Of a DNA stretch of 64,000 bases, positions 45,212 through 52,473 are shown piece by piece. How positions within the stretch are numbered: the first letter of the stretch is position 1; each line of letters starts with the position of its first letter. This stretch comes from Niallia alba (GTDB taxonomy: Bacteria; Bacillota; Bacilli; Bacillales; Cytobacillaceae), in the NCBI RefSeq assembly GCF_012933555.1, contig NZ_JABBPK010000001.1:4132001-4196000 (forward strand), written 5' to 3'. Under the pieces are notes generated by a model. It was not told the origin of the DNA. It did not search any database and worked only from the letters and a program-made list of their open reading frames with translations. A program made the translations under genes and the position numbers.

Positions 45212-45547
45212 CTATTTTCGCTTATCGTAAAACATACCATCTGTTTGCAACGATTGATACGGATTCACATATTTTTGATTGGATGATTTTTTGTGTTCTA
45301 AACTACGCAATTCCTTTTGAATCGATTGCTTTTCTTTTGCCAGCAATGCAACCAACTCTTTATCTTGTTGCAATAGAGCCTGTCCGATTTTCTTTTCCGT
45401 TTCCGTTGTCGGAGAAGTAAGAAGTGTTAAGCAAGCTTGCCTTTGATCCAGAAGCTGATTCACTTTTTCCGTATCTACCTCAGCTTCTCCTTTCAACAGC
45501 TCCACTAACTCATTCGTAATAGCATAGCATTGCTTTAATGCTTCCAT
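45212..45547 (-). CDS. fliT: flagellar export chaperone FliT
   Basis: A 111-residue helical protein. FliT binds the filament-cap protein FliD before export. The ATG at 45547 overlaps the fliS stop (TAATG), and its position as fourth gene after flaG, fliD and fliS supports the call, since FliT proteins are poorly conserved. A longer open frame upstream lies inside fliS and is rejected. Confidence 0.85.
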   Translation of the reverse strand: MEALKQCYAITNELVELLKGEAEVDTEKVNQLLDQRQACLTLLTSPTTETEKKIGQALLQQDKELVALLAKEKQSIQKELRSLEHKKSSNQKYVNPYQSLQTDGMFYDKRK

Positions 45548-45948
45548 TATGCTTGACCACCTTGCCCATGCTGTTTTTGACGATTTAAAACAATCGCTTC
45601 TTTCCACGTATCACGGAATTCAGTCACAAGGGATTCCACTTCCTCAATAATCGTAACGTCATTCTCAATGTTCGCCTTCATTAACTGGCGGTTCATATAA
45701 TCATACAAAGACATCAAATTTTGTGAGATCGGAATATCCATATTTAACGTTACCATTAATTCCTTAATGATATTTTGTGATTTTTGAATATTGGTGTTTC
45801 TTGTTGGAATGTCATTTTCTTTAATTGCATTTTTGGCTAAGTGTAAAAATTTCAGACAGCCGTTATATAGCATTAATGTCAAATCTCCAGCAGATGCCGT
45901 GTTTACGGAGTTCTGCTGATAGGATTGATAGGGGTTTGAAATGGCCAT
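45547..45948 (-). CDS. fliS: flagellar export chaperone FliS
   Basis: A 133-residue four-helix protein that caps the C-terminal helices of flagellin and prevents premature polymerisation. The N-terminal PYQSYQQNSVNTASAGDLTLMLYNGCLKFL is characteristic. It may also antagonise FliW through flagellin. It sits in the flaG-fliD-fliS-fliT operon. Confidence 0.96.
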   Translation of the reverse strand: MAISNPYQSYQQNSVNTASAGDLTLMLYNGCLKFLHLAKNAIKENDIPTRNTNIQKSQNIIKELMVTLNMDIPISQNLMSLYDYMNRQLMKANIENDVTIIEEVESLVTEFRDTWKEAIVLNRQKQHGQGGQA

Positions 45949-45966: not shown

Positions 45967-47499
45967 TTAAGAACTGAACATATTTGTTAAATAGGTTGAT
46001 TGGCTATTTGCTTTGTTAATTGCTGTTTCCATTGCTGTGAAACGAGCCCAATATCGGTTTTCAATTAATTTCAATTTATCTTCAAAACGAGTAATTTGAC
46101 TTGCATAGTTATTTAATACTTTACCTAACGTAAATGTATTATTTACACTAGTAGTTTTCCCAGCTTTGGCCGTGATATCAGTCATCGCTGTTTTTAGAGT
46201 ATCCCTTAAGCGACGTGCAATTCCTTGTTCTGAACTCGTTGATCCATCCTTTTGAAACAGTTCATAAACAGCGTTTGGATCAGCCGAAATCGCTGCTCTT
46301 AGTTTATCTTCATCAATTGTTAGCTTCCCACCATCTAAATAATTGGCAGTAGTTGAAATCCCAATTTGCGATAGTTGCGAATAAGTAGACGTCCCACTTA
46401 CTGGAGAACTAAAATTCGAACGCATTTTTGTTAAAACATTATTTAAAATTGAATCATTTTTCAGCGTACCACTTTTCGCAAGCTTATCCCATTTTTCAAT
46501 TTCATCCTCTGACATATCCTCTTTTTGCGCATCTGTAAGAGGTTGATAATCTCGGTACTTTGTTTCTGTTGTTTTGGCACGGATTTTTTCTACCAATTCG
46601 TTATATTTATTTACAAATTGTGTTATTGTGTCCAAGATACCATCTACATCAGGTGTAGAGGAGAAGGTTACTGCTTCTGTTGTTACTTTTTTTGCAGTGA
46701 ATTCTACACCGTTGACGGTGAAGGTGTTGGAGCTTCTAGTAATATTTAGACCATTATATGTGATGTCAGCGTTTGTTCCAGCAGTTCCAAAAACTGTCCC
46801 ATCCTCACGAGGTTTAGCTGCTAAATCATTATTAGAGTTTATTCCCAATATATTATTAAAAAATTTATTTGGAGAATCCCCATCATCAGAAAGAATTATT
46901 TCAGGCGCTCCCTCGATACCGCCAGTGTTTTTTGCAGTAAAAGAGATTCTTTGAGTCTTATTATCAAAAAATGCAGTTACTCCAGAATCTTTATTAATCC
47001 TTGTAATTATACTGTCCAATGTATCATCCTCAGAAATTGGTAATTTATAAGAGTTTTCTTGGATAACACCGTCTTTTGTAATCGCACTAATAGTTATTGT
47101 CTGACTTCCTGAAAACCCAATATCACTGAGTTTTTTGGATGAATCCCTTATTTTTGAATCCGTGAAACTTTGCATCGTTGCGGCACTAGCCAATTCATTT
47201 ATTTTAATAGAACCAGAAAAATCTATCGTCGAATTCACATTCTTTACCGAAAGTGCATCTGAATTGGATATAGAAACTGTTTTTTTAATATAACTTGCCT
47301 GCTTAGCAACTCCATTAAAAATAGTATTATCTAAATCTAGCAACAATGAATTCATTTCCCGATAGTCATCACGTTGCCACTCTGTATATGTCTTTTTCTG
47401 ATTTATCTTATCTAGTGGCACTCGTTCTGCAGTCATTAACTGCTCAACAAGTGTATCAATATCCATTCCACTAGCTAAACCACCAATTCTTAATACCAT
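45967..47499 (-). CDS. fliD: flagellar hook-associated protein 2 (filament cap)
   Basis: A 510-residue cap protein that folds incoming flagellin at the filament tip. FliD_N (residues 1-100; VLRIGGLASGMDIDTLVEQLM) and FliD_C (about 225-490) are recognisable; coiled-coil ends support pentamer assembly. Start preceded by AAAGAGGTGAG. It lies 15 nt after flaG. Confidence 0.97.
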   Translation of the reverse strand: MVLRIGGLASGMDIDTLVEQLMTAERVPLDKINQKKTYTEWQRDDYREMNSLLLDLDNTIFNGVAKQASYIKKTVSISNSDALSVKNVNSTIDFSGSIKINELASAATMQSFTDSKIRDSSKKLSDIGFSGSQTITISAITKDGVIQENSYKLPISEDDTLDSIITRINKDSGVTAFFDNKTQRISFTAKNTGGIEGAPEIILSDDGDSPNKFFNNILGINSNNDLAAKPREDGTVFGTAGTNADITYNGLNITRSSNTFTVNGVEFTAKKVTTEAVTFSSTPDVDGILDTITQFVNKYNELVEKIRAKTTETKYRDYQPLTDAQKEDMSEDEIEKWDKLAKSGTLKNDSILNNVLTKMRSNFSSPVSGTSTYSQLSQIGISTTANYLDGGKLTIDEDKLRAAISADPNAVYELFQKDGSTSSEQGIARRLRDTLKTAMTDITAKAGKTTSVNNTFTLGKVLNNYASQITRFEDKLKLIENRYWARFTAMETAINKANSQSTYLTNMFSS

Positions 47500-47514: not shown

Positions 47515-47862
47515 TTAAATCTTCTCATCAATTACTAAGCCCATAAATTCCTTCATCGCTGCATACATATCGAGCATTTTTTTAGATGGAATTTCGCGAA
47601 CTACTTCTTTCGTGTCATCATCAATAACTGTTACATAATAATCATTTAATTTTTCATGAAGCTCAAATTTCAAGGAAGTATGTGAAGGCTGCATGAAAGC
47701 ATTCATACTTTCAATTACTTCGTTTAATTGCTGTTTGTTTGGTTTTGGACCATAAAGCTGTAACTGAGGATCCATACTATCTAATTTTTTTTCGATACCA
47801 TTAGTGTTTTCCGCTTGTCTAGGTGTGTAGATATTATGTTGGGAACCAATCCGTTCAATCAT
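47515..47862 (-). CDS. flaG: FlaG family protein (YvyC)
   Basis: A 115-residue FlaG protein, thought to influence filament length. The C-terminal block LKFELHEKLNDYYVTVIDDDTKEVVREIPSKKMLDMYA is typical. The ATG has GGGGGATAATTT upstream. It is the first gene of the fliD operon. An insertion sequence begins 15 nt upstream of its duplicated target site, so only a minimal native leader remains. Confidence 0.93.
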   Translation of the reverse strand: MIERIGSQHNIYTPRQAENTNGIEKKLDSMDPQLQLYGPKPNKQQLNEVIESMNAFMQPSHTSLKFELHEKLNDYYVTVIDDDTKEVVREIPSKKMLDMYAAMKEFMGLVIDEKI

Positions 47863-48027
47863 AAATTATCCCCCTGTGAATACATCGTATTGTCAAAACT
47901 TTTATAGTAAATAGGTTATTAAATCCTATCTGAGAGGGCTTTATAAGCAAAAAAATTGCCACCCCCTGAATTCTAAGGATAATTGAGGTTACGACACTCT
48001 CAACAACCTAGAAAAGGAAGTGACAAT

Positions 48028-49467
48028 TTGTACCCTCAAATTATAACCTATTTATTAACTTTTATAAACTATCAAGAACAACTAATTCGAACATTGCTTA
48101 CTTTATTGATTGGTAAGAGTATGTTTGATAAGCCTACTGAACAGCCAGTAAATAAACCATATCGAAAACTTCAAGTGGACGACCTTCCGGTCATTGAAGT
48201 TCTGGAACAGCTTGATTATCGAGTTCTTCTTAGTGAATATCTAGAGAAGAACGGGAAACCACTTAAACCTGTTCAAAGGCGTAAGAATGCAAAAGTTTCC
48301 GTACCTAAATCCATGAACTGCCCAAAGTGTGGTGCTCCATCAGATTATCTTTATGCCAACAATGGAGATAAAGGCCAGTATCAATGCAAGGTGTGTACAG
48401 AGCTCTTCAGTGAAAAGAACCGTTATTCTAAGGAAGCCATCCTGAAGTGTCCTCATTGTTCCAAAACTCTCGAGAAAATAAAAGAAAGAAAAGATTTTCA
48501 CGTGTTTAAGTGCAAGAACAATGACTGTTCTTATTATCAAAAGAAGCTCAATGGGATGACTTCAAAAGAAAAGAAAAGGTTCAAAAAGGACCCTCAAGCA
48601 TTTAAATTAAGATACATTTTCCGTCAGTTTCATATCGATTTCCAGCCGTTATCCAAGGAATCACCAGAACTGCCGGCCGTTGACTTATCAAAGATTTATG
48701 CATCACCACATACATTAGGATTAATCCTAACCTATCATGTAAACTATGGCCTTTCGGCCCGTAAAACAGCTGCGATTATGCAGGACGTACACGGAGTGAT
48801 GATTTCACATCAGACTGTATTGAACTACGAAAATAGCGTAGCTTTATTACTTAAACCTTATGTGGATCACTATCCCTATGAACTTTCAGACCAATTCTGC
48901 GGTGATGAAACGTATATCAGAGTAAACGGTCGATGGCATTATTTATTTTTCTTTTTTGACGCCGTGAAAAAGATTATTCTTTCGTATCCGGTGTCGCCTA
49001 ATCGAGACACAGCAACAGCCATTCGAGCAATTGATGAGGTCTTAATCAAGATGAAAGAGATTCCAGAAAATCTGACCTTTGTGGTAGACGGGAATCCAAT
49101 CTATCTTTTAGCCCAACATTTCTTCGCTCAACATGGGATTTCATTCGATGTGAAGCAGGTCATTGGATTAACCAATGAGGACCCTGTTTCGACCGAATAT
49201 AGACCACTGAAACAAATAATTGAGAGACTTAACCGCACCTTTAAGGGCAATTATCGCTCCACTCATGGATTCGGCTCTGAACATGGTTCCATTTCATACG
49301 TCACCTTATTTACGGCCTACTTTAACTTTTTGCGTCCGCATGCCGCCTTAGAAGGAAAAGTGCCCGTAGTGAATCCAGAACTCAAGGGGCTTCCAACAAT
49401 GCCAGCACGTTGGACAAAGCTCATTGGATTAGCACAACAATGGATAGTAGAACAAAGACAAGCCTAA
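48028..49467 (+). CDS. DDE transposase with N-terminal zinc ribbons
   Basis: A 479-residue transposase. Residues about 90-165 hold paired CxxC zinc ribbons (CPKCGAPS...CKVC, CPHCSKT...CKNNDC). The catalytic core shows D in FCGDETYIRVNGRWHYL, D in TFVVDGNPIYL and E in IIERLNRTFKGNY, with IS6-like spacing. The start is TTG at 48028 with AAGGAAGTG at a good distance; the frame is open further upstream but lacks a ribosome site. Family assignment is not certain; IS6-like catalytic domain. Intact. Confidence 0.88.
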   Translation: MYPQIITYLLTFINYQEQLIRTLLTLLIGKSMFDKPTEQPVNKPYRKLQVDDLPVIEVLEQLDYRVLLSEYLEKNGKPLKPVQRRKNAKVSVPKSMNCPKCGAPSDYLYANNGDKGQYQCKVCTELFSEKNRYSKEAILKCPHCSKTLEKIKERKDFHVFKCKNNDCSYYQKKLNGMTSKEKKRFKKDPQAFKLRYIFRQFHIDFQPLSKESPELPAVDLSKIYASPHTLGLILTYHVNYGLSARKTAAIMQDVHGVMISHQTVLNYENSVALLLKPYVDHYPYELSDQFCGDETYIRVNGRWHYLFFFFDAVKKIILSYPVSPNRDTATAIRAIDEVLIKMKEIPENLTFVVDGNPIYLLAQHFFAQHGISFDVKQVIGLTNEDPVSTEYRPLKQIIERLNRTFKGNYRSTHGFGSEHGSISYVTLFTAYFNFLRPHAALEGKVPVVNPELKGLPTMPARWTKLIGLAQQWIVEQRQA

Positions 49468-49504
49468 CTTTTTGTTTAGCTGAGCCCTTAAGCTAATTCA
49501 GCAA

Positions 49505-49665
49505 TCGGCGGAGCGAACTCTTGACAAACCGAACTTGCCAATGGTTTAAAATGGAAACAACCAAGGGCTTATTTGGTATGCCTTCTTTTGTTCCCTTCGC
49601 CCTTGTTAAACAATCCTCAAACCATTGGCGTGTTTGTCAAGAGCGATTGCGGCGCATCTCCATCC
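49505..49665. repeat. large imperfect inverted repeat at the right end of the IS
   Basis: Left arm blocks CTCTTGACAAAC and GCCAATGGTTT pair with AAACCATTGGC and GTTTGTCAAGAG; an inner pair AAGGGC/GCCCTT lies between. The result is a long broken hairpin downstream of the transposase gene. Confidence 0.7.
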
Positions 49666-49750
49666 AGTAAATAGGAGAGAAACTAACCCTTTAGGTAGTT
49701 TTCATAAATCTTTTGACACTACCGAATACATCTAGAATTTTATATTTTTT

Positions 49751-49776
49751 ATATCGGTTAAATAATGAAAGTTTTA
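49751..49776 (-). promoter_or_regulatory. SigD promoter of the flaG-fliD-fliS-fliT operon, displaced by the IS
   Basis: Minus strand TAAA (49776-49773), 14-nt spacer, ACCGATAT (49758-49751), close to the SigD consensus TAAA-N14/16-GCCGATAT. Without the IS its -10 would lie about 35 nt upstream of the flaG ATG. The IS now separates them by 1.85 kb. Confidence 0.75.
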
Positions 49777-49886: not shown

Positions 49887-50876
49887 ATGGATAAATACTC
49901 TAATTTAGAAATAAGATTCTCTTATGAAGGATTATGCATGTTAACTGGGAAACTTCTTGGGGGATGGAAACTTATTTCAATCACCAGGAAGACAAGCTAG
50001 ATTTCGATTCAGTCACCGAACAGAGGAGAGAGAATAGACTTTCCATTGTTATCATCAACTGATGAAAGATATTCCATTAGTTATACCTAAATACAAAAAA
50101 TAAAGGATCCTAGAATTTCAGCTGGCTATACAGAACATTTCTATTCACAATCAAGAAACAGTAAATATTTTTCTGATTTAATGAAAGTATGGTATCCAGA
50201 AGGTAAAAAAATCCTTCCATTAACATTTTTAGAAAGATACCTAAACGTTTTTGCCCTTGCATGGTTTTATCAAGACGATGGATGCTTAATAATGAAAGAT
50301 TCAAAAATAAAAAAGATTATTTTATCCACTGAATGCTTTACTATAGAAGAAAACAAATTGTTAGCCAAACTAATTTACCAAAAGTTTCATATACTATTTT
50401 CTCAGGATAAACAAAATAGACTACTACTGTATGATCAAAAACAGATACTTTATTTTCTACATATGGTAGACCCATATATGCACTCTTGTATGGATAGAAA
50501 AAGGAGAGTAGCTCTTTTTCTCCCATCTAAATTACTTGATAAACGAACAACGATAAAACTTCCACTATCCATAACTATAAAATGTCCTACAGAAGAAATC
50601 TATCAAATTCTAAATACACTTCCAAACCTACTATCATTAATTAAGTCTAAAAACGGATATAGAAATTTATTTATAAACGACTATTTTTTAGAGAATTTTA
50701 CTAATACGAAGAAAAGCTATCAAATTATTATTAAAGGAGAGCATAGGGACTTATTAGAAGAATGTAATTATATTAGTGGTTTAAACAATAGCCAAATTAC
50801 TGAACTTTGCTACCGAATAAATAAAATGAGTGAGAAAGAAATTAGTAACCTATTAAATCAACAAACTACTAAATAA
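49887..50876 (+). pseudogene. LAGLIDADG homing endonuclease, disrupted
   Basis: A frame starting at ATG 49887 (AAAGGATAAT upstream) encodes CMLTGKLLG and then breaks. Removing one G from the G5 run at 49959-49963 restores LTGKLLGDGNLFQSPGRQAR, a first LAGLIDADG-type motif. A TAG at 50035-50037 replaces an expected Trp codon, and loss of one A in the A-run at 50095-50100 causes a second frameshift. The remaining frame to 50876 includes the second motif ALAWFYQDDGCLIM (about 50256-50297). Three lesions make it inactive. It lies antisense to hag, just past the hag terminator and outside the hag intron. Confidence 0.8.
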
Positions 50877-50919: not shown

Positions 50920-52473
50920 TTAACGTAATAATTGAAGAACACCCTGCGGCTGTTGGTTTGCTTGAGCCAACATAGCTTGTGCTGCTTGAGAAAGAATAGA
51001 ATTCTTAGTTTGTGCCATCATTTCTTTCGCCATCGTGCGAACATTTACTTTCATAAATGACTAGACTATATCTTCACCCTCTAATATTTCTAGTAGGGGT
51101 CGGGCACTTCGGATTCACAATACTGATGTATATTGTTTTACCTATGGATTTCATCATCATAGCTTCAGCCTTAGATGGTTTATCCTAGTCGTTGAACCTT
51201 CTCCACTTTTTCAAGTAAGGAGCTTGGCTGCTGATTGCCCAATCTTTTCTTTTTTCACACATTCACGCCTACCATTTCTAGTTACGTTGTAGTAAGAAAA
51301 GCTCTAAGAGTTTTCCAGCAATTCACCCGATAGTAATCTCTAGCCGTTACCAGCTAGGACGACTGTGCTTGTTACTGCTTTTTACGCAGCTAAAGCATAA
51401 TCAACGTCACGGATACGAGATTCCGCAGCAGTTAAGTTTTCAGAAGAAGTACTTAAGTTGTTGATAGTGTGGTCTAAACGGTTTTGGTTTGCACCAAGTT
51501 TAGAACGCTCAGCAGAAACTTGGTCAATAGCTGATTGGATTTTAGTTACTGCATTCGCAGCTTTCTCATGTGTTGATACATCAAGCGCTTGTTCAGTAGT
51601 TGTATTATTGGTACCATCAGTTACAGCTAGTTTAGAATTACTAGTACCTGTTTCAGAAATTCCTAAAGCAACAGCTCTCATATCAGATATATCAAGGCTT
51701 AAACTTTGTTTTTCGTTAGCACCGATTTGGAATTTAAGACTCTTAGTAGAATCTGCGGCTTTACCTACAGTTACTGTTGATTCAGTTACTGCAGCAGCGC
51801 CTTTTTTAAAGTCACCAGAAGTAACGGAATCAACACCAGCTGTTTTAGCAGTAAGTGTAAGCGAGCCATCGTCATTAGCAGTAGCTGTATATTTATTAGT
51901 TGTGTCTGCATTAACCAATTTTGCTAGTCCAGCAAGACCATTATCAGTAGTAGTAGCAGTATATGCTTTACCACCAATTGTCATTTCTTTTGTGTTTGCA
52001 AAATCAATATCTGTAGATGCTAATTTATATTCTGCTGCTACTGCACCTCCATCTTTATCACCATTCAATAACTTTTGAGTATTAAACTCAGTGGTATTAC
52101 CAATACGGTTGATTTCAGAAGTTAAAGAGTTCATCTCTTTTTGGATTTCTCCACGATCTGTTTCAGTATTTGTATCGTTAGCTGCTTGTGTTGCTAATTC
52201 ACGCATACGTTGTAGGATATCAGTAGTTTCGCTTAAAGCACCTTCAGCAGTTTGGATTAAAGAAATTCCATCTTGAGCGTTTTTAGCTGCTTGGTCTAAA
52301 CCACGGATTTGACCACGCATTTTTTCAGAGATTGCTAGACCAGCTGCGTCATCAGCTGCATTATTAATACGAAGACCAGAAGATAATTTCTCCATTGATT
52401 TGCTTTGTGCATTGTTTGCGCTACTTAATTTGTTGTAAGTGTTAAGAGCTGCGATATTATGATTGATTCTCAT
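50920..52473 (-). CDS. hag: flagellin, coding sequence split by a group I intron
   Basis: Exon 1 runs 52473-51400 (358 codons, ending RIRDVD) and exon 2 runs 51033-50920 (37 codons, starting MAKEMMAQTKNSILSQ and ending QGVLQLLR). Joining them gives a 395-residue flagellin with the complete D0/D1 core: N-terminal MRINHNIAALNTYNKLSSAN and the C-terminal helix needed for export and polymerisation. Without splicing, translation runs five codons into the intron and stops (RDVDYALAA), losing the export helix. The central domain (about 170-290) is variable and Thr/Ala-rich. The leader has a SigD promoter, a CsrA-type hairpin and the ribosome site AAGGAGG. Confidence 0.93.
51034..51399 (-). ncRNA. 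group I intron in hag (366 nt, no ORF)
   Basis: Conserved core elements appear in order on the minus strand: P, TTGCTGGAAAA (near 51323-51311); Q, AATCAGCAGCCAAGC (51236-51222); R, GTTCAACGACTAGG (51197-51184); S, AAGATATAGTC (51074-51064). P and Q pair (TGCTG/CAGCA), and R and S pair (GACTA/TAGTC) to form P7 with the guanosine site. The upstream exon ends in T and the intron in G (51034), as group I introns require. The borders restore the flagellin frame exactly. The P1 pairing was not resolved by eye. Confidence 0.92.

Follow-up and report, generated by a model that had tools for sequence, protein, structure and literature searches.

Why does an insertion sequence (IS) lie between flaG and its SigD promoter in Niallia alba, and what would it do to the flagellar genes behind it? 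We addressed this in the 64,000-nucleotide stretch of DNA that carries the locus, hereafter the window, and in homologous elements from other genomes. The explanation that we consider probable as a whole is that an IS which targets the signature of gene starts cut the flaG operon off from its promoter, and that expression of the operon is reduced by a predicted antisense terminator within the IS.

The insertion in front of flaG

The IS (47886-49723, plus strand, 1838 bp) is complete and is bracketed by perfect 8-bp direct repeats, with GAATACAT on the flaG side (47878-47885) and an identical GAATACAT on the promoter side (49724-49731). Its left end faces flaG, and its inverted repeats are imperfect, reading CGTATTGTCAAAAC on the left and GGTAGTGTCAAAAG on the right. 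The ends were defined by the inverted repeats together with the 8-bp repeats and are the same in ten copies in this genome, nine of them 100% identical and one 99%; every copy is flanked by a perfect 8-bp repeat of its own. A 79%-identical relative accounts for five further copies in the same genome. The transposase ORF of the flaG-adjacent copy is intact and points away from flaG. We placed the gene at 48028-49467 (plus strand, 479 aa), from a TTG start behind AGGAAG, on the basis of the start and the cysteines that are conserved among homologues; the mechanically called ORF begins at 47983.

The SigD promoter, TAAA-N14-ACCGATAT (49751-49776, minus strand), was recognized by its pattern and by its conserved position in three genomes of the same genus. 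The bare pattern gave one match in 64 kb where 0.32 were expected, which is not significant alone. An equivalent site is found at the same place before flaG in the three same-genus genomes, which have no IS there, and the SigD site upstream of flaG is therefore very probably real. The joined flanks of the insertion align closely with these genomes near the gene, and a SigD/FliA-type sigma factor is encoded in the N. alba genome (profile score above cutoff). From the -10 end to the flaG ATG the distance is 42 nt in the joined empty site and 1888 nt with the IS.

Four genes follow on the minus strand: flaG (47515-47862; Pfam FlaG, 97 bits, above cutoff), fliD (45967-47499; Pfam FliD_N and FliD_C, both above cutoff), which is present in a single copy in the genome, fliS (45547-45948; Pfam FliS, 144.9 bits, above cutoff) and a probable fliT (45212-45607), for which the Pfam FliT score of 26 bits is below the cutoff of 29.5 and which is supported by its position. 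They are co-directional, with short gaps or overlaps between them. In B. subtilis, filament assembly and flagellin export involve FliD and FliS (PMC4054197).

A preliminary description of this DNA had reported an intact IS with 8-bp duplications between the SigD site and the flaG ribosome site, had put the promoter at about 35 nt from the ATG without the IS, and had considered the operon separated from that promoter by the insertion. All of this was borne out. Both repeats are perfect and the ends are defined, the 42 nt of the joined empty site come near the expected figure, and comparison with the three relatives that lack the IS gave an uninterrupted site with the conserved promoter in place.

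On the other side of the promoter, at 51042-51412 and 51382-52473 (both minus strand), a group I intron (Rfam RF00028, 83.5 bits) interrupts hag close to its 3' end, and the remaining flagellin C-terminus lies at about 50920-51040. Outside the intron, in the interval from hag to the flaG promoter, there is a LAGLIDADG endonuclease gene (49888-50876, plus strand) in the orientation opposite to hag, the 5' part of which is probably degraded. Related DNA occurs at the corresponding position before flaG in one same-genus genome (L017).

Target choice

All 15 copies of the IS and its 79% relative in this genome have an ATG at nearly the same distance from the left end, at offset 24 in 13 cases and at offset 25 in two. 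The offset is the position counted from the left end of the IS; offset 24 means that the left end is 23 nt upstream of the ATG. The left ends thus precede the ATG by 23-24 nt, and in most copies a G-rich Shine-Dalgarno-like run follows immediately. At flaG, the signature GGGGG-N7-ATG (47860-47874, minus strand) consists of the ribosome site and start codon of the gene, with the ATG at offset 24.

Every delimited copy among the homologues was collected, which gave 85 distinct non-tandem sites. The ATG was at offset 24 in 70 of them, at 25 in nine and at 23 in one (80/85 at 23-25). Elsewhere in the same flanks, ATG occurred at a background of 1.6% per position; the binomial p for offset 24 was ~1e-110, calculated on insertions that come from related elements but with distinct sites and repeats. 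G was dominant at offsets 12-16, reaching 91%, and directly behind the ATG there was a preference for A. For the 58 sites that have perfect repeats, the right flanks provided an internal control: the ATG signal was present in 55/58 left flanks compared with 1/58 right flanks. The right flanks of these sites had no enrichment of ATG or of the G-run.

Thirteen further sites were examined after the rule had been formed. Among them are elements from Trichococcus, Enterococcus, Geobacillus, Pediococcus and Levilactobacillus with transposases that were only about 50-68% identical. In eleven the ATG was at offset 24 and in one at 25 (12/13), with the offsets of two sites (L201 and L204) read by eye. 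The thirteenth has a TTG at offset 25, the start of an ORF of at least 146 aa that, by inspection only, looks like MutS2. In two cases (L200 and L202), the predicted codon coincides with the publicly annotated gene start, and the 8-bp repeat was confirmed. Two Lactobacillales elements (L203 and L205), with left ends not identified, were not counted. Across Bacillota, the total came to 98 sites, with the ATG at 23-25 in 92. The statistics show that this IS lineage inserts at a fixed distance before start codons and in one orientation.

Such a pattern might arise by survivorship, if insertions landed anywhere but persisted only in the short stretch that precedes a gene start, where they leave ORFs intact. 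Most sites are indeed intergenic and their ORFs are left intact. Survival, however, cannot produce spacing to a single nucleotide or a constant orientation; moreover, several insertions are located within other ORFs, where a G-run/ATG motif occurs by chance, and the remaining intergenic positions go unused. We give this possibility next to no credence.

A chance insertion, notable only for its disruption of flagellar genes, would correspond to the reading of the preliminary description, in which the IS formed part of an unusual mobile-element pressure on the late flagellar genes, jointly with the intron. The insertion, the nearby group I intron and the endonuclease remnant are all real. Against an accident of this kind, which we find scarcely credible, the same start-codon rule held in 15/15 copies in this genome and at 92/98 sites, in front of unrelated genes, and flaG is a top-scoring target by its sequence. 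The claim of unusual pressure had to be given up, as the signature is targeted genome-wide and across genera with flaG among the best matches, and the IS has no relation to the group I intron in hag.

The genes in front of which copies were found include sdhC, whiA, infB and those for an IS110 transposase, a PhzF-like protein, alanine dehydrogenase and cytochrome c551. Of the 85 sites, 62 open an ORF of 60 aa or more, and some of the other sites lie inside longer ORFs where a G-run and an ATG occur by chance. A weight matrix was built from the sites. In the window, only four positions reached or exceeded the median site score, each of them opening a long ORF; the flaG start was the fourth-best match among about 128,000 window positions, flaG itself being one of the 94 training sites. 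Matches with lower scores were often not gene starts. These observations fit a transposition machinery that recognizes a DNA sequence and strikes gene starts as carriers of this signature; coupling to translation need not be invoked.

Alternatively, start sites might be recognized via the translation machinery or an IS-encoded RNA rather than by the transposase alone. Slight room for this is left by two TTG-started ORFs that were struck at the same place (L098 and L154). The sites inside other ORFs speak against it, as do homologues without the right-end element (described below) that still target ATG, and we regard it as very improbable. We favour recognition of the DNA sequence, in which the transposition machinery would select the G-rich Shine-Dalgarno-like run at offsets 12-16 together with a start codon at offset 24, and the flaG start would have been chosen as one of the best matching sequences. 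The insertion left the ribosome site and ORF of flaG intact and cut them off from the SigD promoter.

To our knowledge, the prokaryotic DDE transposases known to aim at gene signals go for promoters. A Bacillota-wide IS lineage that reads a ribosome site and start codon would offer a clean system for studying how transposases read their targets. The lineage works with single-nucleotide spacing and in one orientation. It would also make the genes to be struck predictable, and its insertions between a promoter and its gene, with ORF and ribosome site intact, are potentially reversible transcriptional switches.

Relation to known insertion sequences

The transposase matched Pfam DDE_Tnp_IS240 with 36.8 bits (cutoff 27), while zinc-ribbon matches were weak and below cutoff. 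Its best NCBIfam match was transpos_IS6, at 76.5 bits and below the cutoff of 125. The CxxC pairs are invariant and an N-terminal extension is present in 19 homologues. We class the element as IS6-related and clade-i-like. With IS6 clade i, as described in the family review (PMC7986276), it shares 8-bp target duplications, a zinc-binding region and the N-terminal extension; its DDE domain is of the IS6/IS240 type by the Pfam match. According to the same review, clade i transposases have about 450 aa compared with 479 aa here, the elements measure 1710-1760 bp compared with 1838 bp here, and their inverted repeats have a GG tip and cTGTt/caaa motifs; here, the right end reads GGTAGTGTCAAAAG, whereas the left end reads CGTATTGTCAAAAC. 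Clade i is also associated with a replicative cointegrate mechanism, on which the flanking repeats of all copies have no bearing. The review states that little is known about the control of transposase expression in the IS6 family (Varani et al. 2021, PMC7986276), and its passages on the clade that we consulted make no mention of a target preference or an antisense RNA. An AlphaFold model of the transposase was set aside (mean pLDDT 57.6, pTM 0.30).

Fixed orientation and a fixed distance to a gene signal are also features of TnGBS and ISLre2 (PMC3942029). TnGBS, ISLre2 and ISKra4, which have Mutator-superfamily transposases, insert 15-17 bp upstream of sigmaA promoters (PMC3942029), whereas the signal of the IS in the window is a ribosome site with a start codon. 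No Mutator family was among the profile matches listed for the transposase, the best of which was IS240/IS6. A start-codon target preference was not reported for any IS in the mostly open-access literature that we searched.

The left end of the IS

The left end is predicted to fold into a long hairpin with seven U at its end, about 85 nt before the flaG ATG. The hairpin resembles an intrinsic terminator that faces flaG (stem 48016-48029 with 47953-47966, minus strand) and has the polarity of the strand antisense to the transposase gene, which is the strand of any SigD transcript. It is preceded by an outward-facing, sigma70-like site, TTTATA-17-TATAAT (48040-48068, minus strand, 10/12 match). 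A site of this kind is kept before the hairpin in nearly all homologues, either as TTTATA-17-TATAAT (or with TTAATA) or as TTGATA-18-AATAAT.

The comparison covered 39 different leaders, from N. alba itself and from other Bacillota. The fold energy was lower on the minus than on the plus strand in 39/39 (mean -37.0 vs -22.8 kcal/mol), and the mean z against shuffled sequences was -4.2 for minus and -2.6 for plus. For 30 aligned leaders, the minus strand gave a consensus fold of 14 pairs at -14.2 kcal/mol and the plus strand one of seven pairs at -3.3 kcal/mol. In the named left-end structure, 92% of the cells were paired (41-56% when it was slid), and compensatory changes were found in 22 cells compared with 7.6 in shuffles, above all shuffles; both figures include a second helix of nine pairs that would form a pseudoknot and is less certain. 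Taken together, the fold, its recurrence in 39 homologues, covariation and strand asymmetry indicate that the left end probably carries an antisense RNA gene (47949-48033, minus strand) that covers the transposase ribosome site and ends in an intrinsic terminator.

The hairpin might instead act on the plus strand, where it would hide the transposase ribosome site from externally initiated transcripts. It does cover that site (GGAAG), and the plus-strand fold is itself somewhat better than shuffles (the mean z of -2.6). The main stem, however, has 103 mismatches on the plus strand and only 18 on the minus strand, because many G-U pairs of the minus strand become C-A on the plus strand, and both the U-tail and the conserved promoter-like site are found on the minus strand only. 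We consider a plus-strand role in place of the antisense RNA improbable. A terminator on the minus strand and masking of the ribosome site on the plus strand could coexist.

The first job of the predicted antisense RNA would probably be to limit translation of the transposase, as RNA-OUT does in IS10. RNA-OUT is likewise a short antisense RNA with an outward promoter that is complementary to the transposase ribosome site and folds into a hairpin (PMC5006887); IS family and sequence are unrelated, and the RNA in the window is a predicted one, with a terminator of the U-run type and compensatory changes that are conserved. ISPpu9 also combines an antisense RNA upstream of the transposase gene with a second RNA downstream (Asr9 and Ssr9), but it is an unrelated IS of Pseudomonas putida, located in REP sequences, and its antisense RNA aids translation (PMC8450116).

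Expression of the flaG operon

The preliminary description had stated that a SigD transcript must now cross the IS antisense to the transposase gene. The geometry agrees with this, and the terminator-like hairpin on that strand strengthens the point. A SigD transcript that crosses the IS would be a long, untranslated antisense RNA and would then meet the predicted terminator. Because this terminator reads toward flaG and the SigD transcript would be long, untranslated and antisense, we expect expression of flaG-fliD-fliS-fliT to be strongly reduced, perhaps not abolished; a reduction as such is likely. The strain is thus predicted to have little cap protein and flagellin chaperone as the result of one precise insertion.

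As an alternative, a start inside the IS had been suggested. An outward promoter-like site does exist (48068-48040, 10/12), but its transcript would meet the same hairpin. From the hairpin to flaG, no sigma70-like site scored 9/12 or higher. Read-through from hag into flaG was rejected because of the strong terminator after hag.

A nearly neutral insertion would require that SigD read-through or a weak promoter near the left end drives flaG and that the hairpin terminates poorly. One copy of the IS bears directly on this. In Heyndrickxia sporothermodurans DSM 10599 (L088), it is located 23 nt in front of infB (TIGR00487, 936 bits). infB is essential in bacteria, so that expression past the IS copy must persist in this strain, and other insertions likewise precede useful genes, e.g. 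sdhC and whiA. The infB case warns that silencing by the IS need not be complete. The TTGACA in the IS tip is moreover a -35-like box, and relatives in the IS6 family form hybrid promoters (PMC7986276). With a spacer of 16-18 nt, however, the -10 of a hybrid promoter from this outward TTGACA would fall into the G-run of the target, and we rejected it as a candidate; between the hairpin and flaG, sites of at least 9/12 are lacking, as stated above. The hairpin stem with its U-tail is conserved, and the copy before infB carries a deletion in the stem. We therefore consider near neutrality unlikely, if deserving of some weight, and prefer the reading in which the operon is cut off from its promoter and its expression reduced.

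Compared with a consensus of twelve copies, the copy before infB has a 3-nt deletion in the G-run of the terminator, which changes the hairpin from -33.2 to -26.0 kcal/mol. It also differs from the consensus by one end base, a difference common to several of the twelve. The coincidence of a weakened hairpin with the infB position is suggestive, but it is a single case, spotted after the fact. Among the twelve compared copies, only this one has a change in the terminator stem.

The right end and other copies

A conserved, structured and noncoding element with the polarity of the sense strand follows the transposase gene (49471-49660, plus strand). In 30 homologues, its plus strand had 1158 Watson-Crick pairs, 76 G-U pairs and 26 mismatches, compared with 97 mismatches on the minus strand. 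The polarity is opposite to that of the left-end hairpin. A stem of the element is compensated wholesale in two homologues (L108 and L109). If transcribed, the element could be likened to the downstream RNA of ISPpu9 (PMC8450116). A search of the IS elements against Rfam gave no match even at E<=1.

Two Tissierellales homologues appear to be without the right-end element and have the ATG at offsets 23-24. Because these homologues keep the ATG at that position, the element is probably not required for target choice. We also considered a right-end RNA as the guide to the target and rejected it, as inspection by eye showed no complementarity at the right spacing and these two homologues do without the element.

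Read inward, the right end of most homologues is GGTAGTGTCAAAAGTTCTATGAAAAC, with ATGAAA 18 nt from the tip, which resembles the ATGAAA of the target. The corresponding stretch in the window copy (49702-49723) reads TTTATGAAAAC. The similarity between the two ATGAAA motifs may hint at a shared recognition.

Tandem arrays of the IS with a period of 1846 bp (IS plus 8 bp) occur at L077-L080, L151 and L050, in a Bacillus dakarensis-like genome (G208). In a genome of another genus (G213), copies (L048 and L153-L158) are 99% identical to the IS in the window, which suggests recent transfer between genera.
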